The position numbers were made by a program, and so were the translations under genes. From Actinocatenispora sera (GTDB taxonomy: Bacteria > Actinomycetota > Actinomycetes > Mycobacteriales > Micromonosporaceae), in NCBI RefSeq assembly GCF_018324685.1, contig NZ_AP023354.1:4340001-4404000 (forward strand): a DNA stretch of 64,000 nt, in the 5' to 3' direction. Within the stretch, counting starts at the first letter, position 1. Every line of letters begins with the position of its first letter. Positions 9,412 to 62,125 of the stretch are shown in pieces. The notes below the pieces were generated by a model. That model had not been told where the DNA came from, made no database searches, and saw nothing but the letters and a program-made list of their open reading frames with translations.

Positions 9412-9418
9412 GTCACAT

Positions 9419-10689: not shown

Positions 10690-10695
10690 CGCAGG

Positions 10696-36311: not shown

Positions 36312-36387
36312 CGTCCTCCATCGCGAGCCCAGGCACCCCGCACCCCGCGTCCGCCGGCCCGGACATCGAGGGAGGCCGAGCCGACCC

Positions 36388-36436: not shown

Positions 36437-36442
36437 GACAGA

Positions 36443-36706
36443 GCGGACCGCGCCAGCGGGACGCCGTGCAGTTCAGCGGACCGCGTCAGCGGGACGCCGT
36501 GCAGTTCAGCGGACCGCGTCAGCGGGACGCCGTGCAGTTCAGCGGACCGCGCCAGCGGGACGCCGTGCAGTTCAGCGGACCGCGCCAGCGGGACGCCGTG
36601 CAGTTCTGCGGACCGCGTCAGCGGGACGCCGTGCAGTTCAGCGGACCGCGGCCGGCGGGACGCCGAGGACATCAGCGGACGGCCGGGGCGGGCCGCGGAG
36701 GACATC
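36443..36706. repeat. 33-bp tandem repeats (six near-perfect, two decayed) in the operon leader
   Basis: Units begin GCGGACCGCG and end GCAGTTCA. Six units run from 36443 to 36640 with only a C/T change at one position and one A/T change at the end of unit five. Two decayed units (36641-36674 and 36675-36706) reach the ATG of the GH172 gene. T-type units can form a GCGTC/GACGC stem. The array lies wholly within the inferred leader RNA. Both strands happen to be open in frames with 11-residue periods, but these are taken as by-products of the unit length. Confidence 0.9.
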
Positions 36707-37774
<1,068 letters not shown>

Positions 37775-37776
37775 CG

Positions 37777-46437: not shown

Positions 46438-47334
46438 TCAGCGGGTTTGCAGGAGTTGCTGGACGGACTGGGCGAGAAGCAGGACCGCCGGGTCGGGGCT
46501 GTCGGCCGACCAGGCGAGCCGGAACCGCAGCGGTGGCGGCGGATCGGCCAGCGGCACGAACCGGACGTCGGGGCGCCGCACGGTGTCGGCGACCAGGCTC
46601 GGTAGCGGCAGCAGCGCGATGCGGGCGGCGACCAGATCCAGCGCCGCGGACGGGTCCTCCAGATCATCGGTCACCGGGTACGGCGAGCGCGGCGGCAACG
46701 CCGCCACCAGCGCGGGCCACGGGCCGCCCGGCGGGCGCCGGGCCGGTACCAGCACGCGGCGGCCGGTCAGGGCCGCCAGCCCGAGCGCGCGACGGCCGGC
46801 GAGCGGGTCGCCCGCGGGCACCGCGAGCCGGTCGATCACCACCGTGAACAGGGGGATCGCGGTCAGCTGGATCGGCACCGGTGCGGTGAGGATCGCCGCG
46901 GTGACGCTACCGGCGGCGGCCAGTTCGGCGGCCTCCCGCTGGCCGGCCGAGCGCAGCACCACCTCGGCGCCGGGCTGCCGGCGGGTCAGCCGGCGGGCGA
47001 TCCGGGCCGCGAACGTGCCGAGGATCGATGGATAAGCAAGAGTAATCGTCGGGCCTGCCGGCGCCGCCCACCGGTCCGCGGCGGCGAGTAGCGCGCCGGC
47101 CTCGGTCAGTACCGACCTGGCCGGTGCCAGCAGCGCCTCGCCGGCGGCCGACAGTCGCACCGACCGGCTGCTGCGCTCCAGCAGCCGGCAGCCGAGCACC
47201 CGCTCCAACCGGCCGACGGCCTGGCTGATCGCCGGTTGGGACAGGCCGAGCGAGCGGGCCGCGGCGGAGAAGGAGCGCAACTCGGACACGGTGACGAAGC
47301 AACGCACGTCCCGCAGCGCCGGCAACCGCTCCAT
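46438..47334 (-). CDS. LysR-family regulator, divergent from metE
   Basis: A 298-residue regulator. ATG 47334 has a GGAGG site. The winged helix-turn-helix SFSAAARSLGLSQPAISQAV (about residues 20-39) is typical of LysR, followed by a periplasmic-binding-type effector domain. Its position beside metE mirrors MetR-metE in other bacteria, but the effector (homocysteine in MetR) is inferred only from context. The 113-base gap contains TATCGCTATCCATAAGCAT, a possible LysR site. Confidence 0.87.
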   Translation of the reverse strand: MERLPALRDVRCFVTVSELRSFSAAARSLGLSQPAISQAVGRLERVLGCRLLERSSRSVRLSAAGEALLAPARSVLTEAGALLAAADRWAAPAGPTITLAYPSILGTFAARIARRLTRRQPGAEVVLRSAGQREAAELAAAGSVTAAILTAPVPIQLTAIPLFTVVIDRLAVPAGDPLAGRRALGLAALTGRRVLVPARRPPGGPWPALVAALPPRSPYPVTDDLEDPSAALDLVAARIALLPLPSLVADTVRRPDVRFVPLADPPPPLRFRLAWSADSPDPAVLLLAQSVQQLLQTR

Positions 47335-47447
47335 CGTTCCTCCAGGCCTATCGCTATCCATAAGCATCGTAAATCAGTCCACCGTGCTGGCGTCCCGGGT
47401 CGTTAGCCTGCCCGGACCCGTACCTCGCAAGGCCCGAGGAGATCTCC

Positions 47448-49745
47448 GTGCCCCAGCCAGCCGTGCCGCAGCCAGCCGTGCCCCAGTCAGCCGTGCCGCA
47501 GCCAGTCGCACCACCGGTACCCGAGCCGGGCACCCGCGCGCCCCGGTTCCCGGCGGCGACGATCCTCGGGTACCCGCGGATCGGGCCGCGGCGGGAGCTG
47601 AAGCGGGCGATGGAGGCGTACTGGGACGGGCGCATCGACCTCGCCGGGCTGCGCGAGACCGGCCGCCGGCTGCGCGCAGAGACCTGGGCCGACCTGGCCC
47701 GGCGCGGCCTCGACGGCCAGGTGTCCAACACGTACTCCGACTACGACCACGTGTTCGACGCCGCGCTGCTGCTCGGTGCGGTGCCCGAGCGGTACCGGCG
47801 GGGCACGCCGGAGGACACCGCGTTCGCCGCCGGTCGCGGCGGCGACGGGCTGGCGCCGTTGCGGATGACGAAGTGGTTCGACACGAACTACCACTACCTG
47901 GTACCGGAGATCGGGCCGGACACCGGATTCCGGGCCGACCCGAGCAAGCCGCTGGCCGAGCACGCCGAGGCGCGGGCGCTCGGCGTCGAGACCCGCCCGG
48001 TACTGCTCGGGCCGGTCACGTTCCTGCTGCTGTCCGAGCCGAGCGCGGATGCGCCGGCCGGGTTCGCACCGCTGTCCCGGCTCGATGCCGTGCTGGAGGC
48101 GTACGAGCAGATCCTCGGCACGCTGGCCGATGCCGGGGTCGGCTGGGTGCAGCTGGACGAGCCGGCGCTCGTCGCCGACCGCACCGCGGACGAGCTCGCC
48201 GTGACGGCCACCGCGTACCGGCGGCTCGGCGAGCTGGCGCACCGCCCGGCGCTGTTCGTCGCCTCGTACTTCGGTGCGCTGCGCGAGGCGCTGCCGGTGC
48301 TGGCCGCCACGCCGGTCGAGGCGATCGGCCTGGACCTGGTCCGCGGCGAGCTGCCGGACGAGCTGGATACCTTGCGGGGCAAGGTGATCGTCGCGGGTGT
48401 GGTGTCCGGCCGGGACGTCTGGCGCACCGACGCGGGGCACGCCGCCGGGCAGCTGGAGCGGCTGCGCGGGATGGCGGCGACCGTCGCGGTGAGCACGTCG
48501 TGCTCGCTGCTGCACGTGCCGTACGACCTGGCCGCGGAGACCGAGTTGCCGGCCCAGCTGGCCGGGCGGCTCGCGTTCGCGGCGCAGAAGGTCGACGAGG
48601 TGGTGGCGCTGGCCGCCGGCGACACCGGTACCGCGCCGGCGCCGGCACCCGTCGCCACGCCGGCCGAGCCGCCGCCGGTGACGGAGCGCTCGCCGTACCC
48701 GGTGCGAGCGGCGGCGCAGGCGGCTCGGCTGGGCCTGCCGGACCTGCCGACCACCACGATCGGCTCGTTCCCGCAGACCGGCGAGCTGCGGGCGGCGCGC
48801 GCCGCGCTGGCTGCGGGCCGGCTCGACTCCGACGGGTACGACCGGATCATCGAGACCGAGATCGACCGGGTCCTGGCGCTGCAGCAGGAGCTCGGCCTGG
48901 ACGTGCTGGTGCACGGCGAGCCGGAACGCAACGACATGGTGCAGTACTTCGCCGAGCACCTGGACGGCTTCGCGGTCACCCGCAACGGCTGGGTCCAGTC
49001 GTACGGGTCGCGCTGCACCCGGCCGCCGATCCTGCACGGCGACGTGCGCCGCACCGAGCCGATCACGGTGCGCTGGGCGCGGTACGCGCAGTCGCGGACC
49101 GACCGGCCGGTGAAGGGGATGCTGACCGGGCCGGTGACCATCGTGGCCTGGTCGTTCGTGCGCCGCGACCTGCCGCTGCGCACGGTCGTGCACCAGGTGG
49201 CGGACGCGATCCGGGGCGAGGTCGCCGACCTGGAGGCCGCCGGGATCGGCATCGTGCAGGTGGACGAGCCGGCCCTGCGCGAGCTGCTGCCGCTGCGCGC
49301 CGAACAGCGCGACGACTACCTGGACTGGGCGGTCGCCGCGTACCGGCGGGCGACCTCCGGTGCCGGGGACGCCACCCAGATCCACACCCACCTGTGCTAT
49401 TCCGACGCCGATCAGGTGCTCGCCGCGATCGACGCGCTGGATGCCGACGTGACGAGCGTCGAGTCGGCCCGCTCGCACGGCCGGATCCTGGCCGAGCCCG
49501 CGGTGCGCGCCTTCGCCCGCGGCCTCGGCCCCGGCGTGTACGACATCCACTCGCGCCGGGTGCCGGCGACCGCCGAGATCGCCGCCGGGCTGCGGGCCGC
49601 GCTCGCCGCGCTGCCCGCCGGCCGGGTGTGGGTCAACCCCGACTGCGGGCTGAAGACTCGTGGTTATGCCGAGGTGACCGCCGCGCTGCGCAACCTGGTC
49701 GCGGCCGCCCACGAGGTGCGCGCCGCCGATCCGGTACGGCGTTGA
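47448..49745 (+). CDS. metE: Cobalamin-independent methionine synthase
   Basis: It transfers a methyl group from 5-methyltetrahydropteroyl-glutamate to homocysteine, the last step of methionine synthesis. The 765-residue protein has the two barrels of MetE. The N-terminal barrel starts ILGYPRIGPRRELKRAMEAY; the C-terminal catalytic barrel has TTTIGSFPQT, the zinc ligands His and Cys in HTHLCYSD, and the final Cys in NPDCGLKTR. The first ~30 residues are an added tail with four VPQPA-type repeats of 15 bp (47448-47507). GTG 47448 is preceded by GAGGAGA. Under LysR control, probably. Confidence 0.95.
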   Translation: MPQPAVPQPAVPQSAVPQPVAPPVPEPGTRAPRFPAATILGYPRIGPRRELKRAMEAYWDGRIDLAGLRETGRRLRAETWADLARRGLDGQVSNTYSDYDHVFDAALLLGAVPERYRRGTPEDTAFAAGRGGDGLAPLRMTKWFDTNYHYLVPEIGPDTGFRADPSKPLAEHAEARALGVETRPVLLGPVTFLLLSEPSADAPAGFAPLSRLDAVLEAYEQILGTLADAGVGWVQLDEPALVADRTADELAVTATAYRRLGELAHRPALFVASYFGALREALPVLAATPVEAIGLDLVRGELPDELDTLRGKVIVAGVVSGRDVWRTDAGHAAGQLERLRGMAATVAVSTSCSLLHVPYDLAAETELPAQLAGRLAFAAQKVDEVVALAAGDTGTAPAPAPVATPAEPPPVTERSPYPVRAAAQAARLGLPDLPTTTIGSFPQTGELRAARAALAAGRLDSDGYDRIIETEIDRVLALQQELGLDVLVHGEPERNDMVQYFAEHLDGFAVTRNGWVQSYGSRCTRPPILHGDVRRTEPITVRWARYAQSRTDRPVKGMLTGPVTIVAWSFVRRDLPLRTVVHQVADAIRGEVADLEAAGIGIVQVDEPALRELLPLRAEQRDDYLDWAVAAYRRATSGAGDATQIHTHLCYSDADQVLAAIDALDADVTSVESARSHGRILAEPAVRAFARGLGPGVYDIHSRRVPATAEIAAGLRAALAALPAGRVWVNPDCGLKTRGYAEVTAALRNLVAAAHEVRAADPVRR

Positions 49746-49984: not shown

Positions 49985-49995
49985 GCCGCTGTAGT

Positions 49996-50016
49996 CGTTT
50001 ACAAGAACGTTTGCAA
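49996..50016. promoter_or_regulatory. Repeated operator-like element for the LacI regulator
   Basis: CGTTTACAA (49996-50004) and CGTTTGCAA (50008-50016), direct repeats 12 bases apart differing at one position, just downstream of the start point. CGTTTNCAA resembles LacI-family half-sites. Being next to the regulator's own gene suggests self-regulation. Confidence 0.5.
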
Positions 50017-50042
50017 CTGACCGTCCGGAGGGGAGCGGTGGG

Positions 50043-51062
50043 TTGACGCTGTCCGCACGCCCTACGCTCAGTCAGGTCGCCGACCTGGCCGGGGTGTCCG
50101 TCGCCTCGGTCTCCCGGGTCCTGAACGGACTGCCGGCGAGCCCCGAGATGACCACCCGGGTCCGCGCCGCCGTCGACTCGCTCGGGTACACCCCGGACGC
50201 GCGGGCCCGGTCGCTCAAGGTCGGCCGCACCGAGCAACTCGTCCTTGTGGTTCCCGACGTCGGCAACCCGGTCTACACCGGCCTGATGCGCGCGGTCGCC
50301 GCGGTGGTCAAGGACGCCGGGTACCGGCTGCTGCTGTCCACCGGCAACTCCGAGGTGGCCGAGGAGATCGCCATCCTGGACGGCCTGTCCAGCGGCTACG
50401 CCGACGGGGTGATCATCAGCCCGCTGCGGATGACCGAACCGATCCTGGACGCGCTGCAACGGCTGCGGCACCCGGCCGTGGTCATCGGTACCCCGCCCGC
50501 GGCGGTACCGGTGGACGCGGTGCAGGCCGACTCCGCCGCCGGGGTCGAACTGGCGATGCAGCACCTGGTCAACACCGGCCGGCACCGGATCGCGTTCGTG
50601 AACGGTCCGGTCGACACCGTGCCGGGCGTCGCCCGCCAACGCGGGTTCGACCGGGCGGACACGCGGCTGCTGGCCGGCGCCGGCCGGCGCCACGCGGCGG
50701 CCGCCTTCACCGTCGACGCCGGCCGCGAGATCGCCGGACGGGTACTCGACGACCGGCCGGACGCGGTGCTGTGCGCCAACGACCTGCTCGCCTTCGGCGT
50801 GATGCGGGTGGCGCACTCGCGCGGCATCCGGGTGCCCGACGACCTCGCCGTGGTCGGCATCGACGACACCGACCTGGCCGCGGTGGTCTCGCCCGGCCTC
50901 ACCAGCGTCAACCTCGGCTCCGGCGAGCGCGGCGCGGCGGCCGCCCGGCTGCTGCTGGCCCGGATCGCCGACCCGGAGCGGCCGGCCGAGCGGGTCGTCG
51001 TCGACCCCTGGCTGACCGTGCGCGAGTCGTCCACGCCGGCACGGCAGGAAGGAGTCCGATGA
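50043..51062 (+). CDS. LacI-family regulator, first gene of the DraG/ribokinase operon
   Basis: A 339-residue regulator from a TTG start (50043) with GGAGGGGAG six bases upstream. The DNA-binding domain is TLSQVADLAGVSVASVSRVL then a hinge. The ligand core includes VLVVPDVGNPVYTGLMRAVA (residues ~67 onward). It sits inside the operon it probably controls; its stop overlaps the ATG of the permease gene. The inducer is presumably the imported compound or a breakdown product. Confidence 0.92.
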   Translation: MTLSARPTLSQVADLAGVSVASVSRVLNGLPASPEMTTRVRAAVDSLGYTPDARARSLKVGRTEQLVLVVPDVGNPVYTGLMRAVAAVVKDAGYRLLLSTGNSEVAEEIAILDGLSSGYADGVIISPLRMTEPILDALQRLRHPAVVIGTPPAAVPVDAVQADSAAGVELAMQHLVNTGRHRIAFVNGPVDTVPGVARQRGFDRADTRLLAGAGRRHAAAAFTVDAGREIAGRVLDDRPDAVLCANDLLAFGVMRVAHSRGIRVPDDLAVVGIDDTDLAAVVSPGLTSVNLGSGERGAAAARLLLARIADPERPAERVVVDPWLTVRESSTPARQEGVR

Positions 51063-51985
51063 GCCAGCACGCGACGCTGGACCCGCCGGTGCCGGCACCG
51101 ACGGCGCCGGCCGCACGACGGCGGCGGCGCGACCGCGGCGGCACCATCCTGGTACTGCCGGCGCTGATCCCCGTCGCGCTGCTGTCGGTGTGGCCGCTGC
51201 TGCAGGGCATCTACCTCGCGTTCACCGACACCACGGCCGGGCGGCCGGGCGCGTTCGTCGGGTTGGCCAACTTCGCCGACCTCGGCTCGTACGGACTGTT
51301 CTGGGACTCGTTCACGATCGGGCTGATCTGGGCGGTCTCGGTGACGGTGCTGCAGTTCCTGCTCGCCCTCGGCCTGGCCGTGCTGCTCAACATGCGGCTG
51401 CGCGGGGCCGCGTTCGCCCGGGTGCTCGCGCTGATCCCGTGGGCGATGCCGCCGGTGATCATCGCGATCATGTGGAAGCTGATGTACGACCCGCGGTCCG
51501 GCCCGGTGAACGGGATCCTGTCCACGCTGGGCATCATCGACCACAACGTCAACTGGCTGGGCGACTTCTCCACCGCGCTGCCGGCGGTCATCTTCGTCGG
51601 CGTCTGGGTCGGAATGCCCGCCACCACGGTGGTACTGCTCGCGGGGCTGCAGTCGGTCGACCCGGCCGTACTGGAGGCCGGTTCGGTCGACGGGGCCAGC
51701 AGCTGGCAGCGGTTCTGGCACATCGTCCTGCCGTCCCTGCGTCCGGTGATCGTCGCCATCACCACGCTCGACTTCATCTGGTCGTTCAACGAGTTCGGCC
51801 TGGTGTACGTGCTGACCGCGGGCGGGCCCGGCGGCAAGACGATGCTGCCGATGCTGTTCGCCTACAACGAGGCGTTCAAGTACGGCAACTTCGGGCTGGC
51901 GGCCGCGATGGGCGTCGTCACCGTCGCGGTGATCGTGCTGCTGATGTTCGTGTACCTGCGTGCGCAAAGGCGGGCCGCCTCATGA
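51059..51985 (+). CDS. ABC sugar permease (MalF type)
   Basis: A 308-residue permease with six helices and the EAA loop EAGSVDGASSWQRFWHIVLP (about residues 207-226). The N-terminal tail is Pro/Ala- and Arg-rich. Overlaps its neighbours on both sides by ATGA. Confidence 0.88.
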   Translation: MSQHATLDPPVPAPTAPAARRRRRDRGGTILVLPALIPVALLSVWPLLQGIYLAFTDTTAGRPGAFVGLANFADLGSYGLFWDSFTIGLIWAVSVTVLQFLLALGLAVLLNMRLRGAAFARVLALIPWAMPPVIIAIMWKLMYDPRSGPVNGILSTLGIIDHNVNWLGDFSTALPAVIFVGVWVGMPATTVVLLAGLQSVDPAVLEAGSVDGASSWQRFWHIVLPSLRPVIVAITTLDFIWSFNEFGLVYVLTAGGPGGKTMLPMLFAYNEAFKYGNFGLAAAMGVVTVAVIVLLMFVYLRAQRRAAS

Positions 51986-52821
51986 CCTCACGTCGGCTCA
52001 CCCCCGGCCGGGCGCTGTCCTACCTGGCGCTCGCCGGCTACGTCGTCCTGCTCGGCTTCCCGCTCGTGTGGCTGCTGTCCACGTCGTTCAAGACCCCGCG
52101 CGAGCTGGCTTCGCTGTCGCCGAGCCTGCTGCCCGAGGAGTTCTCGCTGACCAACTTCCGGGCCGCGATCGAGCAGCAGGACCTGCTTCGCGCCGGCGCG
52201 AACAGCCTGATCGTGGCCGGCTGCACCACGGTGCTGGTGGTGCTCGTCTCGGTGCCCGCCTCGTACGCGCTGGCCCGGTTCCGCAGCCGGCTGCGCGGTG
52301 TGGCGATGGGCTGGATCCTGGTGTCCCAGGTGTTCCCGATCATCCTGATCGTGGTCCCGCTGTTCCTGATCCTCAAGCAGTTCGGCCTGATCGACTCGCT
52401 GGCCGGCCTGGTCCTCGTCGACCTGGTCTGGTCGCTGCCGTTTGCCCTCTGGATGCTCCAGGGGTACGTCGCGAAGATTCCCGCCGAGCTGGAGGAGGCG
52501 GCGGCCACCGACGGCGCCAGCCGGCTGCGCACCCTGACCCGGATCGTGTTCCCGCTGCTGCTCCCGGGCATCGCGGCGACCTCGATGTTCGCGTTCGTCC
52601 TGTCCTGGAACGAGTTCTTCTTCGCGCTCGTGCTCATCCAGGACCCCCAGCTCAACACCCTGCCGTTGGCGCTCGCCCGCTTCGTCGGCCAGGAGGGGCA
52701 GGTGCAGCTCGGCCCGCTCGCCGCGGGATCGCTGCTGTCGATGATCCCCAGCCTGGTCTTCTTCGCACTGATGCAGCGCCGACTGACCTCCGGCCTGCTG
52801 GCCGGCGCGGTCAAGGGCTGA
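51982..52821 (+). CDS. ABC sugar permease (MalG type)
   Basis: A 279-residue permease with the EAA loop EEAAATDGASRLRTLTRIVF (about residues 172-191) and six helices. It pairs with the preceding permease. No ATPase is encoded in the operon. Confidence 0.88.
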   Translation: MTSRRLTPGRALSYLALAGYVVLLGFPLVWLLSTSFKTPRELASLSPSLLPEEFSLTNFRAAIEQQDLLRAGANSLIVAGCTTVLVVLVSVPASYALARFRSRLRGVAMGWILVSQVFPIILIVVPLFLILKQFGLIDSLAGLVLVDLVWSLPFALWMLQGYVAKIPAELEEAAATDGASRLRTLTRIVFPLLLPGIAATSMFAFVLSWNEFFFALVLIQDPQLNTLPLALARFVGQEGQVQLGPLAAGSLLSMIPSLVFFALMQRRLTSGLLAGAVKG

Positions 52822-52852
52822 CCCCGCCACAGGTGAAGGAAGGAAACCCCTC

Positions 52853-54148
52853 ATGCAGAGAAGGACGGCCCTGACCGCGATGCTCGCGGCCACGGCGGCG
52901 ACGCTGACCGGCTGCGCGACCAGCGGCGGCGGCAGCAGCTCCGACGACACCGACGCCAACGGTACGGTGCACCTGAAGTTCCAGTCGCTGGCCTTCGCCG
53001 ACACGACCGTGGCGCAGACGAAGAAGGCGGTCAAGGACTGGAACGCCAAGCACCCCAAGGTGCAGATCCAGCTGATCCAGGGCAGCTGGGACAACGTGCA
53101 CGACCAGCTCGTCACCCAGCTGGCCGGCGGTACCGCGCCGGACATCATCCACGACGAGAACGCCGACATCATCGGCTTCGGCCAGCAGGGCTACTTCGCC
53201 GACCTCAAGCCGTACGTGTCCAGTGCGCTGCGCGGCAACGTCGCCGACGGGGTGTGGAACTCGCTGACCGTCGACGGCAAGCTGATCGCGGTACCCACCC
53301 TGCAGCAGACGTACGTGGTGTTCGCCAACACCACGGCGCTGGGCAAGGCCGGTGTCTCGGTGCCGACCGGAAAATCGCTGTCCTGGGACGACTTCCGGGC
53401 GATGGCGAAGAAGCTGACCGGCAAGGGCAGCCACGGCGTCGGGTGGGGTCTCAAGCAGCCGGCCGCCACGGTGCTCAACCTGTCCGCGAACTTCGGCGGC
53501 ACCTGGTTCCACACCAGCGGAGACGACGCGAGCCTCACCGTCGGTACCGCCGAGATGCAGGTGCCGCGGCGCATCCACGCGATGGCCTACGACGACAAGT
53601 CGATCGACCCGACCAGCCTGACCCAGTCCGGCGGCGACGTACTGCCCGGCTTCTACGCCGGGAAGTACGCGATGATGGTCGCCGGATCGTATGTGGCACA
53701 GCAGATCCAGGAGCAGGCTCCCAAGGGATTCAGGTGGGCGGTGCTGCCCCCGCTGGCCGGTACCAGCAGCGCCCAGCCGGCCAGCTCGCAGACGCTGTCG
53801 GTGTCCAAGGCGACCAAGCACGTGAAGGAGGCGGCGCAGTTCATCGACTACTTCGTCGCCGACGCGAACCTGGCGAAGCTGGCGCAGAGCGACTGGCTGA
53901 TCCCGGCGACCGCGAGCGCCCGCACCGCGGTGCGCGAGCAGACCGGCGGCAAGGACGGCTGGGACCAGATCCTCACCTCCGGTGAGAACCTCGTGGATGC
54001 ACCGTTCCTGCACGTCAAAAACTACCCGCAGTGGAAGGACCAGATCGCCACCCCGTCGCTGCAGCGGTACCTGGCGAACGACATCGCCGCCAGCAAGCTC
54101 GCCGACCAGCTCACCAGCGGGTGGAAGCAGGTCGGGGGCGGACACTGA
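52853..54148 (+). CDS. ABC sugar-binding lipoprotein of the DraG/ribokinase operon
   Basis: A 431-residue solute-binding protein. A short signal with lipobox LTGC (Cys ~20) is followed by a Ser/Gly/Asp linker and the body, including GGTAPDIIHDENADIIGFGQ (about residues 91-110), as in carbohydrate-binding proteins of importer family 1. Ribosome site GAAGGAAA. Family members bind mono- to oligosaccharides or nucleoside-like compounds. Confidence 0.88.
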   Translation: MQRRTALTAMLAATAATLTGCATSGGGSSSDDTDANGTVHLKFQSLAFADTTVAQTKKAVKDWNAKHPKVQIQLIQGSWDNVHDQLVTQLAGGTAPDIIHDENADIIGFGQQGYFADLKPYVSSALRGNVADGVWNSLTVDGKLIAVPTLQQTYVVFANTTALGKAGVSVPTGKSLSWDDFRAMAKKLTGKGSHGVGWGLKQPAATVLNLSANFGGTWFHTSGDDASLTVGTAEMQVPRRIHAMAYDDKSIDPTSLTQSGGDVLPGFYAGKYAMMVAGSYVAQQIQEQAPKGFRWAVLPPLAGTSSAQPASSQTLSVSKATKHVKEAAQFIDYFVADANLAKLAQSDWLIPATASARTAVREQTGGKDGWDQILTSGENLVDAPFLHVKNYPQWKDQIATPSLQRYLANDIAASKLADQLTSGWKQVGGGH

Positions 54149-55299
54149 ACCGCGACGCCGACGCGCCGGCCGGGCACCCCGAGCCCGGCCGGTCATCCGC
54201 GCCCGAACCCGGCCCGGTCGCCGCCGGCGATCCCGCCCGGGACCGGGCTCGGGGCTGCCTGCTGGGCCTGGCGATCGGGGACGCGATGGGCGCACCGGCG
54301 GAGAACATGACCGCCGCCGCCATCGCCGAACGGTGGGGCCCGGTGACCGGGTTCCTGCGCGACGAACCGGCCGGTACCGACGACACCGAGTACGCCGCGT
54401 TCAGCGCGCTGCTGCTGATCGAGCACGGCGCGGCGCTCACCAGCGAGCAGGTCGCCGACGCGTGGGTACGGCACCTCGCCGGTCGAGCCGGCGGCTTCCC
54501 CGGCGCCGGCTTCAGCGAACTGGGCACCGTCGAGAACCTGCGAGCCGGGCTGCGACCGCCCGCGTCCGGCCAGCACCTGCACTCGTGGAGCGACGGCCTC
54601 GCCATGCGTGCCGCGGTACACGGCGTGTACGCGGCGGGCGACGTCGCCCTCGCGGCCCGGCTGGCCGCCGTGGACGGCGCGGTCAGCCACGACGGCGAGG
54701 GCGTGTACGCCGGTCAGGCGGTCGCCGTGGCCGTCGCCGCGGCCCTGGCCGGCGCCGGCCCCGTCGAGGTGCTCGCGGCCGCCCGCCGCTGCGTACCGGC
54801 CGAGTCGTGGACGGCGGCCGCGCTCGCCACCGCCGGTACCGCCGCCGGGCCGGACGCGCTGCTCGATGAGCTGGTGGTGCGCGCGTACCCGTGGACCGAT
54901 CTCGCCCCGGAGGCGGTCGGGCTGGCGTTCGGTGCCTTCCTTGCCGCCGGCGGCGAGCTGCGCCGGGCCGTACCGGGTGCGGTGGCGATGGGCCGCGACG
55001 CGGACACCACCGCGGCGATCGCCGGCGCGCTGTGCGGCGCGAGCCAGGGCATGGCGGGCATCCCCGCCGACTGGGCGGCCGCGGTCGGCCCGGTCACGGG
55101 CCGCTGCCTGGGCGAGGTCGTCGCCGGACTGACCATGACCGACCTGGCCGACCGCCTCGTCGCGGCGCGGTCCGAGGCGGCGCGGCCTGAGGCGGCGCGG
55201 TCCGAGGCGGCGCGGCCCGGGGCGGCGCGGCCGGAGGCGGCGCGGTCCGAGGCGGCGCGGTCCGAGGCGGCGCGGCCGGAGACGAGGACCGGACGATGA
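54121..55299 (+). CDS. ADP-ribosylglycohydrolase (DraG) family protein, paralogue 1
   Basis: Up to 392 residues. In-frame starts are GTG 54121 or a CTG at 54145 that would overlap the previous stop; the true start is unclear. Domain from about residue 42: LGLAIGDAMGAP, the metal motif GTDDTEYAAF, a middle HDGEGVYAGQAV and the second metal motif AMGRDADTTAAIAGALCGAS. All expected Mg-binding Asp/Thr positions are present, so it should be active. The C-terminus has eight SEAAR/PEAAR repeats (55162-55281). The substrate is probably a ribosyl compound rather than ADP-ribosylated protein. Confidence 0.85.
   Translation: MEAGRGRTLNRDADAPAGHPEPGRSSAPEPGPVAAGDPARDRARGCLLGLAIGDAMGAPAENMTAAAIAERWGPVTGFLRDEPAGTDDTEYAAFSALLLIEHGAALTSEQVADAWVRHLAGRAGGFPGAGFSELGTVENLRAGLRPPASGQHLHSWSDGLAMRAAVHGVYAAGDVALAARLAAVDGAVSHDGEGVYAGQAVAVAVAAALAGAGPVEVLAAARRCVPAESWTAAALATAGTAAGPDALLDELVVRAYPWTDLAPEAVGLAFGAFLAAGGELRRAVPGAVAMGRDADTTAAIAGALCGASQGMAGIPADWAAAVGPVTGRCLGEVVAGLTMTDLADRLVAARSEAARPEAARSEAARPGAARPEAARSEAARSEAARPETRTGR
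55162..55281 (+). repeat. 15-bp tandem repeat encoding AAR[S/P]E, inside DraG paralogue 1
   Basis: Eight units of GCGGCGCGG followed by a variable six-base part. They encode a charged, helical-looking tail of alternating AARSE/AARPE and AARPG. Such repeats change in number by slippage, so allele length may differ between strains. Confidence 0.8.
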
Positions 55300-56513
55300 C
55301 CGAACCGATCGACCGTACCGGCGCGGATCGTCGCCGCGGCGCGATCCTGGGGCTCGCGATCGGCGACGCCGCCGGCTGGCCGGCACGGGTGCACCGGTCC
55401 CGGGTGCTGCCGGGGTGGACCCGCCGGCTGCGCCGGGAGCTGGACACGTTCGCCGAGACCGAGGCGGTCACCACGCTGCCGGTGCCGTTCGCGCTCAACC
55501 AGGACCCGACAGCGCTGCGGCTCGGTCCGGGCGACGACGCGGAATGGGTCGCCTGGACCCTGGCCGGGTTGGCCCCGCTGCCGACCGACCGCGCGGCGAT
55601 GCACGCCCGATGGTCGACCGCCGTGGCGGCGGGCACTGTCCCGGCGGGCCGGATCGCCGTGGCTGCCGCGGTCGACAACCTGCGGCGCGGGGTGCTGCCG
55701 CCGGACTCCGGGCGGCGCAACCCGCACCACTTCGACGACGCCGCCGCGATCCGGGCCGTGGCGTTCGGCATCCTCGGCGCCACCCCGGCACACGCGGCGA
55801 CGCTGGCGGAGTGGGACGCCGAGGTGACCCACGCCGGCGACGGGGTCGCCACCGCGCGCGCGGTCGCCGTCGCGATCGCCACAGCGGTTTCGCCACGGCC
55901 GGCCCAGCGCCCGGATCCGGACCGGCCCGCCGGTGCCCCGGCACTGGCGGACGGGTCGGCCGGTGCCCCGGCCCCGCCGTACGGGGCCGGTGCCGCGACA
56001 GCGCCGGACGGAGCGGCCGGTGCCGCGGTGCCGGTGGGCCGGGCCGGCGCCGGAGCGGGTTCCCCGGCACCCGAGTCGAAGCTGCTCGCCGCGCTGGAGG
56101 CCGAGCTGCCGATCGATCGGCTGGCCGGGCGCACGCTGCGCCGGGCGCTCGCGCTCGTGGCCGGCGCGGGTACCCCGGCGCAGGCCGTACCGCTGCTCGA
56201 CGAGCTGGTGGACCGGGTGTACAGCTACGGCTGCGCCGCGGCCCAGACCGTACCGGTCGCGGCGGCACTGACCGCGGTGGCGCTGCGCAGCGGTACTCCG
56301 ACGATCGACGCGATCCTCGCCGCGGCCGCGCTGCCGTCGCTCGCCGACAGCGCCCCGGCGCTGACCGGCGCCCTGCTCGGCGCGGTACGCGGCGCCGCCG
56401 AACTACCGCCGTCCTGGGCCGAGACGTGTCGGACCCTGGCCGGCTGTTGCGACCCCACCCTCGCCGGGGTCGATCTGCTCGACATCGTGGAAAGGACCAC
56501 CCGTGGCCAGTGA
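55296..56513 (+). CDS. ADP-ribosylglycohydrolase family protein, paralogue 2 (degenerate metal site)
   Basis: A 405-residue protein; ATG 55296 overlaps the previous stop. It begins LGLAIGDAAGWP, but the TDDT box is replaced by GPGDDAEWVAW, and the second metal motif reads SLADSAPALTGALLGA in place of DADT, so the first Asp is lost. A variable Ala/Pro/Gly insert (about residues 208-262) is unlike its paralogues. It may be a catalytically weak or regulatory partner of paralogues 1, 3 and 4. Confidence 0.78.
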   Translation: MTEPIDRTGADRRRGAILGLAIGDAAGWPARVHRSRVLPGWTRRLRRELDTFAETEAVTTLPVPFALNQDPTALRLGPGDDAEWVAWTLAGLAPLPTDRAAMHARWSTAVAAGTVPAGRIAVAAAVDNLRRGVLPPDSGRRNPHHFDDAAAIRAVAFGILGATPAHAATLAEWDAEVTHAGDGVATARAVAVAIATAVSPRPAQRPDPDRPAGAPALADGSAGAPAPPYGAGAATAPDGAAGAAVPVGRAGAGAGSPAPESKLLAALEAELPIDRLAGRTLRRALALVAGAGTPAQAVPLLDELVDRVYSYGCAAAQTVPVAAALTAVALRSGTPTIDAILAAAALPSLADSAPALTGALLGAVRGAAELPPSWAETCRTLAGCCDPTLAGVDLLDIVERTTRGQ

Positions 56514-57651
56514 GAGCCTCGAATCGCGTGCGATCGGCTGCCTCGTCGGCGCCGCCGTCGGTGACGCGCTGGGCGGCGCGACGGAGGGCTGGAGTCCGGC
56601 GCAGATCGCGCAGCGCTGGGGCGGGTGGGTGGACGGCATCGTTCCGCCGTACTACCCCGACTGGCGCAACGCGCGGCCGATCGCCCCGTACCACAAGGGC
56701 GACGGGCACATCACCGACGACACGTTGATGACCCACCTGCTCGTCGAGGTGTACGAGCAGGCCGGCACCCACCTGACCGCCTACGACGTGGCGAACCGGC
56801 TGGTACCGCTGATGCTCGGCGAGCGCCGCTGGGTGCCGGAGCTGGAGGAGGCCGCGCTGCCGCTGCAGCGGGTGTTCCTCGCCGAGAAGTACCTGGCGCT
56901 GCGGCTGCACTGGGCGCACGCCGACCCGCGCGAGGCGGGCGTCGGCAACGCCGTCAACTGCGGCGCGGCGATGTACATGGCGCCGGTGGGCATCGTCAAC
57001 GCCGCCGACCCGGACGCCGCGTACGCGGAGGCGATCGACCTCGCCGGCGCGCACCAGGCCTCGTACGGCCGGGAGGCGGCCGGGGTGCTCGCCGCCTGCG
57101 TCGCCGCCGCGGCCACCCCCGGCGCCACGGTCGACGACGTCGTGGCGGCCGCGCTGCGGCTGGCGAAGGACGGTACCCGGGCCGCCCTGGATGCGGTGAC
57201 CACCGCCGCCGGCACAGTGACGCACTGGACCGAGGCGATCGAGTCCGGCGCGCTGCGGGCCGCGATCCGCCCGTACGACACCGTCGGCGACGACTACCGC
57301 GACCAGGGGCTCGGCGCCCGCCGGCCGAGCCGGGTGCACAGCATCGAGGAGCTGCCGCTCGCGCTGGGCATGCTCGTCGTGGCCAAGGGAGACTGGCGGG
57401 AGGCGGTGCTGGGCAGCGTCAACTACGGCCGGGACGCGGACTCGATCGCGTCGATGGCCGGCGCGATCGCCGGTGCGCTGCACGGCCGGGACGCGGTCGA
57501 CGCCGACCTCGCCGCCGCGGTCGCGACCGCGAGCCGTACCGATCTGGTCGGGCCGGGGGAGCGGCTGGCCGCGGTGACCCGGCAGATCCGTACCGCGGAC
57601 CGGGCCGCGCGCGCCGCGGCCGACGCCGGGTACGACGGGTTGCTGTCGTGA
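56503..57651 (+). CDS. ADP-ribosylglycohydrolase family protein, paralogue 3
   Basis: A 382-residue protein from GTG 56503 (GGAAAGGA upstream), overlapping paralogue 2 by 11 bases. Motifs: GAAVGDALGGATEG, the metal box ITDDTLMTHLL and YGRDADSIASMAGAIAGALH. All metal ligands look intact. The middle ACVAAAATPG and VNCGAAMYMAPVG regions are typical of the family. Predicted soluble, cytoplasmic hydrolase. Confidence 0.87.
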   Translation: MASESLESRAIGCLVGAAVGDALGGATEGWSPAQIAQRWGGWVDGIVPPYYPDWRNARPIAPYHKGDGHITDDTLMTHLLVEVYEQAGTHLTAYDVANRLVPLMLGERRWVPELEEAALPLQRVFLAEKYLALRLHWAHADPREAGVGNAVNCGAAMYMAPVGIVNAADPDAAYAEAIDLAGAHQASYGREAAGVLAACVAAAATPGATVDDVVAAALRLAKDGTRAALDAVTTAAGTVTHWTEAIESGALRAAIRPYDTVGDDYRDQGLGARRPSRVHSIEELPLALGMLVVAKGDWREAVLGSVNYGRDADSIASMAGAIAGALHGRDAVDADLAAAVATASRTDLVGPGERLAAVTRQIRTADRAARAAADAGYDGLLS

Positions 57652-59033
57652 TGCGCCTGACCTGGGTCCAACCCGAGGATCTGGTCGGGCACGGCCTGGC
57701 CCAGGCGGTACTCGACGGGGTCGACGTCACCGACCTGTGCGCCGCCTGGGTGGCCGCCGGCGGCGACCCGGAACCGTTGCACGCCGGCGCCTCCGACCGG
57801 CCGGCGCCTGCGCCCCTGCGGGTGCTCGCCGGCGACATCCTGGACGAGCTGGACCGCCGCCCCGCCGACCTCGACGGCACCGAGCCGACCGAGCTGGCCG
57901 CGATCCGCCGGTTGCGCACCGGTGCGGTACCGGACCGAACGGCGCCGCCGGCCGGCGGGTCCGACCACCACGACCGGGTGCACGGGGCGTGGCTCGGCCG
58001 GGCGGCGGGGTGCCTGCTGGGCAAGCCGGTGGAGAAGATTCCACGGGCCGGGATCCGGGAGATCCTCGAGGCGACCGGCCGGTGGCCGCTGGCCGACTGG
58101 TTCACCGCCGACGGGCTGCCGCCCGAGGTGGCGCGGCGCTGGCCGTGGAACCGGCGCAGCGCCCCCACCAGCCTGGCCGAGAACATCGCCGGGATGCCCG
58201 AGGACGACGACCTCAACTTCGCGCTGCTGGCGCTGGAACTGCTGGAGCGCCACGGCGTTGCCCTGTCCACCGAGGACGTCGCGCAGGCCTGGCTGTCCGA
58301 GCTGCCGGCGGGCCGGCTGTTCACCGCCGAGCGGGTGGCCTACCGCAACCTGCTGCTCGGCCAGGTACCGCCGGCGACCGCCACGGTTCGCAACCCGTTC
58401 ACCGACTGGATCGGGGCGCAGATCCGCGCCGACGTGTACGGCTGGGCGAACCCCGGCGCACCAATCGCCGCCGCCGACCTGGCCTGGCGCGACGCGGTGC
58501 TCAGCCACACCCGCAACGGCGTGTACGGGGCGATGTTCGTCGCCGCGGCCTGTGCCACGGCGACGGTCGCGGACACCGTCGAGGAGGTGCTCGATGCGGG
58601 ACTGGCCGCCGTACCACCGGAATCCCGCTACGCGCGGGCGGTCCGGTTCGCCCGGGCGCTGCCCGCCGAGCACGCCGACTTCGAGGACGCGGTGGACGCG
58701 ATCGCCGGGGAGTACGGGCAGCTGCACTGGGTGCACGTGCTCAACAACGCGGCGCTGCTGACCGCCGCGCTGGTCTACGGCGCCGGCGACTTCACCGCCA
58801 CCATCAGCTACGCGGTACGCGGGGGCTGGGACACCGATTCCAACGGCGCCACCGCCGGCTCGATCGCCGGTGCGCTGACCGGGGCCGCGGCGCTGCCCAC
58901 CCGCTGGGTCGCCCCGCTGCGCAACCGGCTCGCCTCCACCCTGCCCGGCTTCGACGGCATCGGCTTCGACGAGCTCGCGGGCCGCACCGTCACGATCACG
59001 AAATCCCTTGCCGCGCAACGGAAGGAAATCTGA
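57651..59033 (+). CDS. ADP-ribosylglycohydrolase family protein, paralogue 4
   Basis: A 460-residue protein; the stop of paralogue 3 shares its last base with ATG 57651 (TGATG). An added N-terminal ~110 residues of unknown fold precede the domain WLGRAAGCLLGKPVE. The metal box reads MPEDDDLNFALLA, and the second motif is GGWDTDSNGATAGSIAGALT, with metal Asp and Thr/Ser kept. Farthest in sequence from the other three. Confidence 0.85.
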   Translation: MRLTWVQPEDLVGHGLAQAVLDGVDVTDLCAAWVAAGGDPEPLHAGASDRPAPAPLRVLAGDILDELDRRPADLDGTEPTELAAIRRLRTGAVPDRTAPPAGGSDHHDRVHGAWLGRAAGCLLGKPVEKIPRAGIREILEATGRWPLADWFTADGLPPEVARRWPWNRRSAPTSLAENIAGMPEDDDLNFALLALELLERHGVALSTEDVAQAWLSELPAGRLFTAERVAYRNLLLGQVPPATATVRNPFTDWIGAQIRADVYGWANPGAPIAAADLAWRDAVLSHTRNGVYGAMFVAAACATATVADTVEEVLDAGLAAVPPESRYARAVRFARALPAEHADFEDAVDAIAGEYGQLHWVHVLNNAALLTAALVYGAGDFTATISYAVRGGWDTDSNGATAGSIAGALTGAAALPTRWVAPLRNRLASTLPGFDGIGFDELAGRTVTITKSLAAQRKEI

Positions 59034-59929
59034 TGGCCGATGTCGTGGTGCTCGGCAGCGCCAACATGGACCTGGTCGTGACCACCGACCGGCTGCCCGG
59101 CCGGGGCGAGACGATCGCCGGTGGCACGTTCCGCCAGGTACCCGGCGGCAAGGGCGCCAACCAGGCGATCGCCGCGGCGCGCGCCGGCGGTACGGTCCGG
59201 TTCGCCGGTGCGGTCGGCGACGACGACCTCGGCCGGCGGATCGTCGCCGCGCTCGCCTCCGCCGGCGTCGACACCACCGCGGTCGGACGTGCCGGCGTAC
59301 CCACCGGCACCGCACACATCACCGTGGCGGCCGGCGGCGACAACACGATCGTGGTGGTACCCGGTGCGAACGGGACGCTGACCGACCTGCTGCCGGCGCA
59401 CGCCTACGCGATCGCCACCGCCGACACCCTGCTGCTGCAACTGGAGCTGCCGTTGCCGGTGGTGCAGGCGGCGGCGACCCACGCGCACGCACTCGGCGTG
59501 CGGACCATCCTCACCCCGGCGCCGGCCCGCCCGCTGAGCGACGACCTGCTCGCCGCGGTGGACCTGCTGGTACCCAACGAGCACGAGGCGACGCTCATCG
59601 CCGGCGTCGACGACCCGTACCGGGCGGCGCAGCTGCTCGCGAAGCACTGCGACGTGCTGCTGACCCTCGGCGAGCGCGGCGCCGTCCACGTCACCGCCGA
59701 CGCCGAACCCGTTGCAGTACCGGCGTTCCCGGTCACCGCGGTGGACACCACGGCGGCCGGCGACACGTTCGTCGGCGTGCTCGCGGTCGCGCTCGCGGCC
59801 GGCGCCGCGATGCCGGACGCGATGCGCCGGGCATCGGCCGCCGCGGCGCTGTCGGTCCAGCAACCCGGCGCGTCCGACTCGGCGCCCACCGCAGCCCGGA
59901 TCGACGCCTTCCTCGGCGGCGCGGCATGA
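59033..59929 (+). CDS. rbsK: Ribokinase
   Basis: A 298-residue PfkB-family sugar kinase. It phosphorylates ribose at O5 with ATP. Motifs: VLGSANMDLV at the start, GGKGANQAIAAAR (about residues 36-48) binding the sugar, and DTTAAGDTFVG (about residues 239-249), with the catalytic Asp as in E. coli RbsK (IAAGDTF). ATG 59033 overlaps the previous stop; GAAGGAAA site. Its place after the DraG genes suggests it uses the ribose they release; a related pentose or nucleoside is possible. Confidence 0.88.
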   Translation: MADVVVLGSANMDLVVTTDRLPGRGETIAGGTFRQVPGGKGANQAIAAARAGGTVRFAGAVGDDDLGRRIVAALASAGVDTTAVGRAGVPTGTAHITVAAGGDNTIVVVPGANGTLTDLLPAHAYAIATADTLLLQLELPLPVVQAAATHAHALGVRTILTPAPARPLSDDLLAAVDLLVPNEHEATLIAGVDDPYRAAQLLAKHCDVLLTLGERGAVHVTADAEPVAVPAFPVTAVDTTAAGDTFVGVLAVALAAGAAMPDAMRRASAAAALSVQQPGASDSAPTAARIDAFLGGAA

Positions 59930-61272
59930 CCCCCGAGGCCCGCCCGGAGCCGTCGACCTCCCGCCGCGTCAACCGCCCCGGAGACGCCAGCCGCCCCGGG
60001 GACCAGGGGATCGTGCCATCGGCTCCCAGCACGTCGTCGCCGGATCCCGGGCTCGACGCCGGCGTCGGCGCGGCGGCGCGGCCGGGGCGCGGGCCGCTGG
60101 CCGGGCTGCGGGTGGTGGACGCGTCGACGCTGTTCGCCGGGCCGCTGACCGCGATGCACCTCGGGGACCTCGGCGCCGACGTGGTCAAGGTCGAGCACCC
60201 GCGCCGGCCGGACCCGGCCCGGGGCCACGGTCCGGCCAAGGACGGCCACAACCTCTGGTACAAGACGCTCGGGCGTAACAAGCGGACGATGACCCTCGAC
60301 CTGTCCACCGACGGCGGCCGGGACGTGTTCCGCCGCCTGGCGGGTACCGCCGACGTGGTGGTGGAGAACTTCCGCCCGGACACGCTGGAGCGCTGGGGCC
60401 TCGGCTACGCCGAGCTGTCGGCGGGCAACCCGGGTCTGGTGCTGGCCCGGATCACCGGTTTCGGTCAGGTCGGCCCGTACCGGCGCCGACCCGGGTTCGG
60501 CACCCTCGCCGAGGCGATGAGCGGGTTCGCCGCGATGACCGGTACCCCCGATGGTCCGCCGACGCTGCCGCCGTTCGGCCTGGCCGACGGCATCACCTCG
60601 TTCGCCGCCGCGTACGCGGTGCTCGCCGCGGTGCATGCCCGGCACGCCACCGGATCCGGCCAGGTCGTGGATCTGTCCATCGTGGAACCGATGCTCGCCG
60701 TGCTCGGTCCGCAGATCACCCAGTGGGACCAGTTGCACACCGTCCAGCCGCGCACCGGCAACCGGTCGGCGAACAACGCCCCGCGCAACACCTACCGGTG
60801 CGCCGACGGCCGCTGGGTCGCGGTGTCCACCAGCGCCCAGAGCATCGCCGAACGGGTGATGCGGCTGGTCGGCCGGCCGGACGTGGTGAGCCAGGACTGG
60901 TTCGCCACCGGCGCCGGCCGGGTCGCGCACGCCGACGAGCTGGACTCCGCGGTCGCCGCCTGGATCGCGCAGCGCACCCGGGACGAGGTGGTCGCCGCGT
61001 TCGAACGGGCGCAGGCCGCCGTCGCACCCATCTACGACGCATCCGACATCGCGGCCGACCCGCAGTACGCGGCGCTGCACACGATCGTGCGGGTCGACGA
61101 CCCCGACCTCGGCCCGACCGCGATGCAGAACGTGCCGTTCCGGCTGTCCGCGACTCCCGGCTCGATCCGCTTCACCGGGCGGCGACAGGGCGCCGACACC
61201 GACGAGATCCTCGCCGAACTCGGCTACCCGGACGACGAGATCGCCGCGTTCCGCGCCGCCGGGGTGATCTGA
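59926..61272 (+). CDS. Class III CoA-transferase (CaiB/BaiF family)
   Basis: A 448-residue protein with an extra ~60-residue Pro/Ser tail at the N-terminus. Domain start LAGLRVVDASTLFAGPLTAM; KVEHPRRPDPARGHGP and ENFRPDTLERWGLGYAEL match the family. The usual nucleophile Asp region appears as RRPGFGTLAEAMSGFAAMTG, where Gly stands at the Asp position; a different subfamily or altered mechanism is possible. It would move CoA onto a carboxylic acid. Overlaps rbsK by ATGA. Confidence 0.87.
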   Translation: MTPEARPEPSTSRRVNRPGDASRPGDQGIVPSAPSTSSPDPGLDAGVGAAARPGRGPLAGLRVVDASTLFAGPLTAMHLGDLGADVVKVEHPRRPDPARGHGPAKDGHNLWYKTLGRNKRTMTLDLSTDGGRDVFRRLAGTADVVVENFRPDTLERWGLGYAELSAGNPGLVLARITGFGQVGPYRRRPGFGTLAEAMSGFAAMTGTPDGPPTLPPFGLADGITSFAAAYAVLAAVHARHATGSGQVVDLSIVEPMLAVLGPQITQWDQLHTVQPRTGNRSANNAPRNTYRCADGRWVAVSTSAQSIAERVMRLVGRPDVVSQDWFATGAGRVAHADELDSAVAAWIAQRTRDEVVAAFERAQAAVAPIYDASDIAADPQYAALHTIVRVDDPDLGPTAMQNVPFRLSATPGSIRFTGRRQGADTDEILAELGYPDDEIAAFRAAGVI

Positions 61273-61324
61273 TGCCGTGCGCCGAGGCGGAGGGCGGCAA
61301 TCCGCTCCCGGACCGGGGCGTCGG

Positions 61325-62125
61325 ATGCTGACCGCGCTGTACGTGCCGGCCGATCGGCCCGACCGGATCGGCAAGGCCCTCGCCGGCCCCGCCGATGTCG
61401 TCCTGGTCGACCTGGAGGACGCGGTCGCCCCGGACCGCAAGGACCACGCGCGCGAGCAGGCCGCCCGGCTGCTGGCCGAGGTCACCGACCGCGCCGTGCA
61501 GGTACGGGTCAACGACGTGCGGACCGGTGCCGGCGAGGCGGACCTCACCATGCTCGGCGACCTGCCGGCCACCATCGGGGTACGGCTACCCAAGATCGAG
61601 GACCCTGCCACGGTACGGGCGGTTGCCGAGCGGCTGCCCGGCCGGGCGCTGCATCCGTTGCTGGAGTCGGCGTTGGGCGTGGAGGCGGCGTACCGGATCG
61701 CGACCGCGGACCCGGCCGTCGCCTCGATCGGGCTCGGTGAGGCCGATCTGCGCGCCGACCTCGGCCTGCCCGCCGACGCCGACGACGGCCTGGCCTACCC
61801 GCGCTCCCGGGTACTGGTCGCGGCCCGGGCGGCGGGCCTGCCGGCACCGGCCCAGTCGGTGTACGCCAACGTCAAGGATCTGGCCGGACTCGCCGCCTCC
61901 TGCCGGGCCGGCCGGCGGCTGGGGTTCCACGGCCGTGCCGCGATCCACCCCGCACAGCTGCCGGTCATCGCCGCCGAGTACGCCCCGACCGAGGCGGAAC
62001 TGGCCGCTGCCCGCGCCGTACTCGCGCTCGGGACCACGGGCGCAGCGGCGCTCCCCGACGGCCGCTTCGTCGACGAAGCCATCCTCCGCACCGCCCGCAA
62101 CACCCTCCGCGAAGCCCGCGACTGA
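61325..62125 (+). CDS. CitE-like CoA ester lyase (HpcH/HpaI aldolase superfamily)
   Basis: A 266-residue protein. VDLEDAVAPDRKDHAR (about residues 26-41), PLLESALGVEAAY with the Glu metal ligand, and GLGEADLRADLGLP with the Asp ligand show an intact active site. Relatives cleave malyl-, citramalyl- or methylmalyl-CoA to acetyl-CoA plus glyoxylate or pyruvate. It follows the CoA-transferase by 52 bases, so they are likely successive steps. The substrate acid is unknown. ATG 61325 is used; GTG 61277 would add 16 residues. Confidence 0.85.
   Translation: MLTALYVPADRPDRIGKALAGPADVVLVDLEDAVAPDRKDHAREQAARLLAEVTDRAVQVRVNDVRTGAGEADLTMLGDLPATIGVRLPKIEDPATVRAVAERLPGRALHPLLESALGVEAAYRIATADPAVASIGLGEADLRADLGLPADADDGLAYPRSRVLVAARAAGLPAPAQSVYANVKDLAGLAASCRAGRRLGFHGRAAIHPAQLPVIAAEYAPTEAELAAARAVLALGTTGAAALPDGRFVDEAILRTARNTLREARD

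Follow-up and report, generated by a model that had tools for sequence, protein, structure and literature searches.

What compound would a bacterium have to take up for its use to require, side by side, proteins of the DraG family, a ribokinase, a CoA-transferase and a CoA-ester lyase? The question is raised by an operon at positions 50043-62125 of the window analysed here, a stretch of 64,000 nucleotides from 4.34-4.40 Mb of the 7.04 Mb single-contig genome of Actinocatenispora sera. On balance, we favor the view that this operon imports and catabolises a riboside in which a hydroxy-di/tricarboxylic acid, one like citramalate, malate or hydroxymethylglutarate, is the aglycone or is attached. 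Two parts of this proposal stand on firmer ground than the whole: it is very probable that the DraG proteins of the operon serve catabolism, not ADP-ribosylation signalling, and there is good reason to believe that ribose is released. The eleven genes, all on the + strand, overlap or touch save for 31 bp 5' of the binding protein gene and about 50 bp 5' of the lyase gene, and are abbreviated as P1 and P2 (permeases), SBP (binding protein), D1-D4 (PF03747 proteins), RK (ribokinase), CT (CoA-transferase) and CE (lyase):

49995..50018, + strand: probable LacI operator, containing GAACGTTTGC, a variant of a palindrome kept in relatives' upstream regions
50043..51062, + strand: LacI-family regulator (PF00356, PF13377), with a TTG start preceded by GGAGGGG
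51059..51985, + strand: CUT1 permease P1 (PF00528, 84 bits)
51982..52821, + strand: CUT1 permease P2 (PF00528, 77 bits)
52853..54148, + strand: SBP, probably a lipoprotein (PF01547, 139 bits), with an N-terminal Cys in at least 95% of 71 rows
54121..55299, + strand: D1, predicted DraG-family hydrolase (PF03747, 171 bits, scanned from 54145)
55296..56513, + strand: D2, divergent DraG-family protein, probably no catalyst (PF03747, 73 bits), missing the metal-site Glu and DxD[TS]
56503..57651, + strand: D3, predicted DraG-family hydrolase (PF03747, 169 bits)
57651..59033, + strand: D4, predicted DraG-family hydrolase (PF03747, 173 bits), extended N-terminally by some 100 aa, mostly helical
59033..59929, + strand: ribokinase RK (TIGR02152, 297.5 bits; PDB ribokinases)
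59926..61272, + strand: class III CoA-transferase CT (PF02515, CoA_transf_3, 405 bits)
61325..62125, + strand: CitE/RipC-like CoA-ester lyase CE (PF03328, HpcH_HpaI, 110 bits), with an alternative GTG start at 61277

The start of D1 is uncertain, the candidates being an in-frame GTG at 54121 and a non-standard CTG at 54145. An earlier note, made from the letters of the DNA alone, had taken these genes for a single unit set in sugar catabolism, and both points hold up: all eleven are present on the one strand and belong to the families it named (Pfam, NCBIfam), the import and catabolism operon is conserved, and DraG proteins accompany ribokinases and CUT1 importers in several lineages. The note had also made its proposal hinge on conservation beyond this genome, and synteny is clear in actinobacterial as well as rhizobial loci. 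A scan of bacterial and archaeal genomes with D4 yielded at least 569 related stretches, of which the best 80, all actinobacterial, were analysed (some of them end at contig ends). Within 9 kb of D4 and on the same strand, D3 is found in 80 of these loci, RK in 75, P1, P2 and SBP in 67 each, LacI in 65, CT in 63, CE in 62, D2 in 47 and D1 in 43; two further genes, GHF (39 loci) and EST (18 loci), are taken up below. The usual order is LacI-P1-P2-SBP-[D1-D2]-D3-D4-RK-[GHF]-[EST]-CT-CE, and because this order recurs in the actinobacterial loci fetched with D4, the operon is not a chance arrangement. Likewise, chance open reading frames are ruled out by the conservation of D1-D4 in the row alignments. 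The locus is a real, conserved and probably catabolic operon.

Where enough flanking sequence is present, the loci without CT and those without the importer come from one genus each. Among 68 loci with more than 8 kb of downstream sequence CT is absent in 12, all titled Nonomuraea, and an adjoining CT-CE pair lies elsewhere in all five Nonomuraea genomes tested (60-67% and 50-53% identity; three pairs were viewed). Upstream sequence exceeds 7.6 kb in 70 loci, and nine of these, all titled Streptomyces, are without the importer; two of three such Streptomyces genomes tested have an SBP homologue (41-42%) elsewhere, beside both permeases in the two viewed. In one Streptomyces locus (L080) the operon lies between gltB and the lgt, trpA and trpB genes, a stretch which, going by gene numbers, is presumably SCO2026-SCO2037 of S. 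coelicolor. On account of this position, taken from L080, and of the numbering, SCO2028-SCO2031 are probably D1-D4. In the family of the window (a sample of 101 Micromonosporaceae genomes), 34 have a D4 match at 1e-30, and CE lies within 7 kb in 31 of the 32 in which D4 reaches at least 400 bits (coordinates compared by hand). CE-like genes are common in the family, being found in 82 of the 101 genomes at 1e-10, so only their close position to D4 is telling.

Inspection of the DraG-family proteins allows versions likely to be active to be told from one that is probably not. All four exceed the PF03747 gathering cut-off of 26.2 bits (Pfam), D2 by the smallest margin, and the genome holds six matches to this family, two of them outside the operon. 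Paralogue alignments were filtered by length, which kept 37 of 42 D1, 39 of 39 D2, 77 of 79 D3 and 78 of 80 D4 sequences, plus those of the window. In comparison with a DraG-family protein that stands alone in this genome, D1, D3 and D4 display a Glu past the first glycine-rich motif, a (T/S)DD or DDD and a DxD(T/S), which we take, from the structures of DraG and ARH3, to be the metal ligands. With the window included, at least 95% of rows conserve GTDDTEY and GRDADT in D1 (38 rows), TDDTLMT and GRDxDS in D3 (78 rows), and PEDDDLN and GWDTDS in D4 (79 rows); for the Glu of D1 the share is at least 70%, a figure lowered in part by some short called starts. D2 lacks the metal-site Glu and has LADSAP at the position of the GRDADT of D1. 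Of 40 D2 rows, at least 95% share the ADSAP (L048, one of three relatives compared, differs there). Thus, of the four hydrolases that the earlier note had counted, all are family members, but D2, to judge from its residues, is probably not a catalyst.

A structural model of D4 (pLDDT 88.5) has DraG, ARH3 and MJ1187 as its ten best solved folds in a Foldseek search, with TM-scores of 0.67-0.81 by target length and 0.46-0.55 by query length (DraG 2woc, 0.70 and 0.46; MJ1187 1t5j, 0.81 and 0.55). The operon proteins thus share with the DraG/ARH family the fold, as seen in D4, and the metal-site motifs, as seen in D1, D3 and D4. They differ in that D4 has 16-18% identity to 2woc and 1t5j, and in that several paralogues stand in one catabolic operon with no transferase partner: none of the operon genes matches an ADP-ribosyltransferase family (Pfam, NCBIfam). 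A role in defence, such as anti-phage ADP-ribosylation, was also considered and set aside, no PADLOC model matching D1-D4.

The identity of the sugar is suggested by RK, which scores 297.5 bits against the ribokinase model TIGR02152, some 2 bits under its equivalog cut-off of 299.65, and whose closest solved structures by sequence are ribokinases (best 1e-58, PDB). Further, the same genome carries a second DraG operon (L140, 6071000-6090900, genes at 4968-12611 of that stretch), which consists of LacI, RK (249.5 bits), a D-ribose pyranase (122.4 bits vs a cut-off of 93), a 686-aa DraG protein, SBP and two CUT1 permeases. The genes 3' of this second operon read as sulfatase-like.

The acid part of the proposal rests on CT and CE. 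The best NCBIfam model for CT is succinate-glutarate CoA-transferase, at 244 bits against a cut-off of 750, and its PDB relatives include a succinate-hydroxymethylglutarate CoA-transferase (1e-47), with a CaiB/BaiF protein and formyl-CoA transferase scoring higher. More is learned from the settings in which the pair recurs. CE directly follows CT in all seven alphaproteobacterial off-operon loci opened, six of which were picked, outside DraG operons, from 39 plasmid records with a close CT. Three of these pairs follow the tripartite tricarboxylate transporter genes TctABC, three lie with ABC genes, a hydroxyacid dehydrogenase and an RraA-family gene, and one is in another setting; at the seventh locus a tricarballylate dehydrogenase gene lies about 4 kb from CT-CE. 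The TctABC-CT-CE operons contain the same adjoining pair as the window operon, but they carry a transporter for the free acid and, in the stretches opened, neither DraG nor kinase genes. The nearest off-operon actinobacterial CTs (60-66%) lie in four loci (L210-L213) with CE, an amidohydrolase, PF04199, MmgE/PrpD and an IclR-like regulator, identified by Pfam for two amidohydrolases and one full set and by similarity for the rest; these modules did not name the acid. In three other actinobacterial loci (L131-L133) CE was seen with MmgE/PrpD-type neighbours (Pfam on L131 and L133). The presence of CT-CE beside tricarboxylate transporters and organic-acid genes makes it look like a portable module for hydroxy-di/tricarboxylic acids, and the role in acid degradation that the earlier note had assigned to the two enzymes is supported by this recurrence. 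That the acid is at the same time the aglycone of the riboside is what we infer.

A tree of CTs bears on how the module came to be joined to DraG proteins. It comprised 16 operon CTs (that of the window and one in every four of the CTs 381-419 aa long), four of the five rhizobial ones (the broken L128 was excluded) and 29 off-operon rows; matches spanning at most 330 query residues were excluded. The four CTs of rhizobial operons group together (support 100/99), and sister to this clade is an off-operon Nitratireductor CT that, together with its CE, lies directly 3' of a three-gene tripartite tricarboxylate transporter. A clean single clade is not seen for the CTs of actinobacterial operons, which a branch sets apart in only 50% of bootstrap trees. 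A single ancestral origin of the CT-DraG link was rejected, as the rhizobial and actinobacterial operon CTs are not joined in the tree; with the rhizobial CTs beside that of a tricarboxylate operon, the link was apparently made separately in rhizobia.

One of the closest named routes is the degradation of itaconate or mesaconate through the citramalyl-CoA lyase RipC/Ccl, since RipC_Ccl is the best NCBIfam model for CE; in it, a CoA-transferase activates the acid, retro-Claisen cleavage follows, and the transferase is presumably of another class than CT. It was rejected because CE scores 167.7 bits against an equivalog cut-off of 375 and because a hydratase is missing: no enoyl-CoA hydratase is found among the eleven genes (Pfam, NCBIfam) or among the annotated genes of a Sinorhizobium operon. 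The lack of a hydratase fits an acid that already has its hydroxyl, perhaps the very one that carries the sugar.

On the side of uptake and control, SBP_bac_1 (PF01547) and two BPD_transp_1 (PF00528) proteins make up an importer of the CUT1 carbohydrate type, whose best NCBIfam relatives are importers of sugars and glycerol-3-phosphate, all under cut-off. The operon contains no ATP-binding subunit, and four UgpC-like ATPase genes lie elsewhere in the genome. Counting of 10-mers in upstream regions uncovered the palindrome AAACGTTT. Of 65 such regions, one of them from the window, 46 contain AAACGTTTAC 5' of LacI, the expectation being 1.9; the window has only the variant GAACGTTTGC, about 30 bp upstream of LacI. 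A LacI-box pattern derived from the window alone was discarded, having matched just seven of the 65 regions (again counting the window), and a scan for promoters and terminators gave nothing exceeding shuffled sequence. Where the modules lie apart from the operon, at the loci of CT-CE in three Nonomuraea and of the importer in two Streptomyces, AAACGTTT was not found, so shared control is unsupported there.

Taken in order, these parts suggest the following route. A LacI repressor would control the operon, its operator being indicated by conservation in relatives, and SBP with the two permeases and a shared ATPase would, judging by their families, import the compound. D3 and D4, in this lineage along with D1, could then hydrolyse ribosyl bonds by means of the DraG metal site that their motifs indicate, D2 being probably non-catalytic or structural. 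The bonds cut would probably be those of alpha-ribofuranosides, a guess drawn from passages of PMC13036486, in which none of the human hydrolases tested acted on a beta-linked uracil-ADP-ribose probe and three did on its alpha form, ARH3 weakly. The ribokinase would turn the ribose into ribose 5-phosphate, as expected of its family. CT, by its family, could put CoA onto the freed acid, probably from succinyl-CoA, and CE might finally catalyze a retro-Claisen cleavage of the hydroxyacyl-CoA to acetyl-CoA or a similar product and an oxo acid.

Several observations weigh against this proposal. The 80 loci are related and were chosen as the best D4 matches, which makes their counts non-independent and biased to close relatives. 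RK is absent from five of them, none of the five rhizobial loci with CT was found to have it, and one of the 32 family operons (G046, L138) lacks an adjoining CT-CE, running instead to GHF and then to unrelated genes. A D-ribose pyranase beside DraG is seen only in the A. sera genome: a search of 150 genomes from the order gave a single further close relative of the long DraG protein of the second operon, with an RK-like gene and no pyranase within the 4-5 kb of sequence around it. The score of CE, far under the RipC_Ccl cut-off, points the same way. Additionally, D4-like genes of other family genomes stand with GH32 (L136) or with GH36 and GH38 (L137), or without importer or kinase nearby (L134), suggesting that the D4 clade may act on other compounds.

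These associations bear most directly on the strongest rival, oligosaccharide catabolism, in which the acid would be an ester or ether substituent, the DraG proteins (elsewhere GHF) would cut sugar-sugar bonds, an esterase would free the acid, and CT-CE would degrade it. A CUT1/LacI signature is that of oligosaccharide import, D4 relatives occur beside the glycosidase families just named, and the best 80 loci include 39 with GHF and 18 with the esterase-like EST. GHF, of about 655 aa (e.g., L048:12268-14280, the protein modelled), resembles TIM-barrel alpha-glycosidases in the N-terminal part of its model and the FGE/EgtB fold in the C-terminal part; only this rough fold was used, since the pLDDT of the model is a middling 72.5, and an FGE-sulfatase domain is found by Pfam in both GHF proteins tested. 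The one EST protein tested (L051) combines a PF00756 esterase domain with a beta-propeller repeat. Among 73 loci with enough sequence, D1 and GHF are both present in six, D1 only in 34, GHF only in 32 and neither in one, a near-exclusion (Fisher 2e-13, a value not to be taken literally as the loci are related) that is expected if D1 cuts a glycosidic bond and that counts in favor of the acid-riboside proposal. D1 and GHF are thus probably alternative ways of doing one job, probably the removal of a sugar. However, the window operon keeps CT-CE and has neither GHF nor an esterase, and its ribokinase is the sole sugar-degrading gene among the eleven, on account of which we consider oligosaccharide catabolism unlikely, if the best of the alternatives.

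The earlier note had left the imported compound as either a ribosylated acid or something nucleoside-like. The gene logic that it set out holds, and of its two candidate compounds the acid riboside is the one favored above. The nucleoside option, i.e., salvage of an N-riboside whose base is acidic (a riboside of nicotinate or of an imidazole acid, for example), is less likely because the importer is of the CUT1 type, which is not a usual nucleoside importer, and because the operon has no nucleobase gene: none of the eleven is a ring-opening or base-degrading gene, and CT-CE cannot open an aromatic base. We regard it as quite improbable, even though a D4 relative in the archaeon Halostella lies with genes that, by eye, look like those of a BMP-type importer of nucleosides, a nucleoside hydrolase and a kinase of the PfkB type, and passages of PMC10819704 describe the E. 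coli yegTUV genes, none with a clear function, as a predicted nucleoside symporter, a DraG-family protein and a sugar kinase.

The weakest reading, that D1-D4 strip ADP-ribose from proteins, nucleic acids or small molecules, a role that has been assumed of homologues in Streptomyces, while the catabolic genes salvage the ribose, can draw on the DraG/ARH fold and metal motifs and on the classing of SCO2028-SCO2031 as DraG/ARH homologues in the sections of PMC9411070 that list them (SCO2028-SCO2030 also in PMC5087735), but is very improbable, as it leaves the CUT1 importer, CT and CE without a role, as neither an ADP-ribosyltransferase family nor any PADLOC model is matched, and as the part of PMC13036486 that treats SCO2028 and SCO2030 reports no detectable activity of either on U-alpha-ADPr, a single substrate.

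As the earlier note had surmised, no account of these genes as a set came to light in the literature, in searches of which only some were directed at it and which covered titles, abstracts and some passages, subscription papers falling mostly outside this scope. Cassettes of a DraG protein, a kinase and a transporter are already known, and the rus locus of B. thetaiotaomicron is, as we take it, of the same kind. The window operon shares with E. coli yegTUV a DraG-family protein, a PfkB-type kinase and an importer, and differs from cassettes of the yegTUV and rus type in its ABC importer, its four DraG paralogues and the added CoA-transferase and CoA-ester lyase. The joining of the latter two is the new part. 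If the acid-riboside proposal is correct, it amounts to a whole new catabolic route with a testable start and end, points to a ribosylated acid common enough in soil for many actinobacteria to keep the genes, and purified D1, D3, D4 and SBP would be direct tools for finding the natural compound.

It would also remove several bacterial DraG/ARH proteins from the ADP-ribosylation count. In S. coelicolor, passages of PMC9411070 list eight uncharacterised DraG/ARH homologues, SCO2028-SCO2031 among them, and those of PMC5087735 take seven (without SCO2031), together with three macrodomain proteins, as a sign of lively ADP-ribosylation metabolism. We tentatively advance, as a proposition with somewhat less than an even chance, that hydroxy-di/tricarboxylic acid ribosides are an undescribed, widespread class of soil and plant metabolites feeding bacteria of at least two phyla, and that much of the bacterial DraG/ARH fold comprises ribofuranosidases unrelated to ADP-ribosylation, four of those eight homologues in S. 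coelicolor among them.

Relatives of the operon extend to other lineages. Among plasmids, a tblastn search turned up 21 records with D3 relatives, all but one from rhizobia and their kin (20), and 28 with D4 relatives. Nine of the 20 rhizobial-type loci were opened (L117-L119, L123-L128): all nine have LacI, P1, P2, SBP, D3 and a UgpC ATPase, eight a D4 relative, five CT and four CE. A full RK is present in one of the nine (L118, which is without CT and CE), and in L123 part of an RK-like gene is matched on the opposite strand. D4 relatives lie with LacI, CUT1 genes and RK in Mycolicibacterium and Deinococcus, and with an RK-like gene in Subdoligranulum. A Subdoligranulum plasmid (L129) carries two DraG-family proteins and a ribokinase. 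By eye, L129 also has an acetyltransferase-like and a glycosidase-like gene, and might be a gut version of riboside use. Among other genomes of the family of the window, whose D4-like genes have 37-46% identity, L135 has D1, D2, an importer and RK. At L136:9405-12109, the GH32 gene lies directly 3' of the D4-like gene in an operon of the LacI/CUT1 type.

Upstream of the window operon, its 5' neighbours are a LysR gene (46438-47367) and metE (47448-49745). The window contains a second CUT1-type system at 35307-40902, with a LacI gene on the - strand, a DUF2961 gene (PF11175, 307 bits), SBP and two permeases; SBP and the permeases were identified by eye. DUF2961 is, as we take it, the glycoside hydrolase family GH172, and this second system may therefore handle another furanoside.

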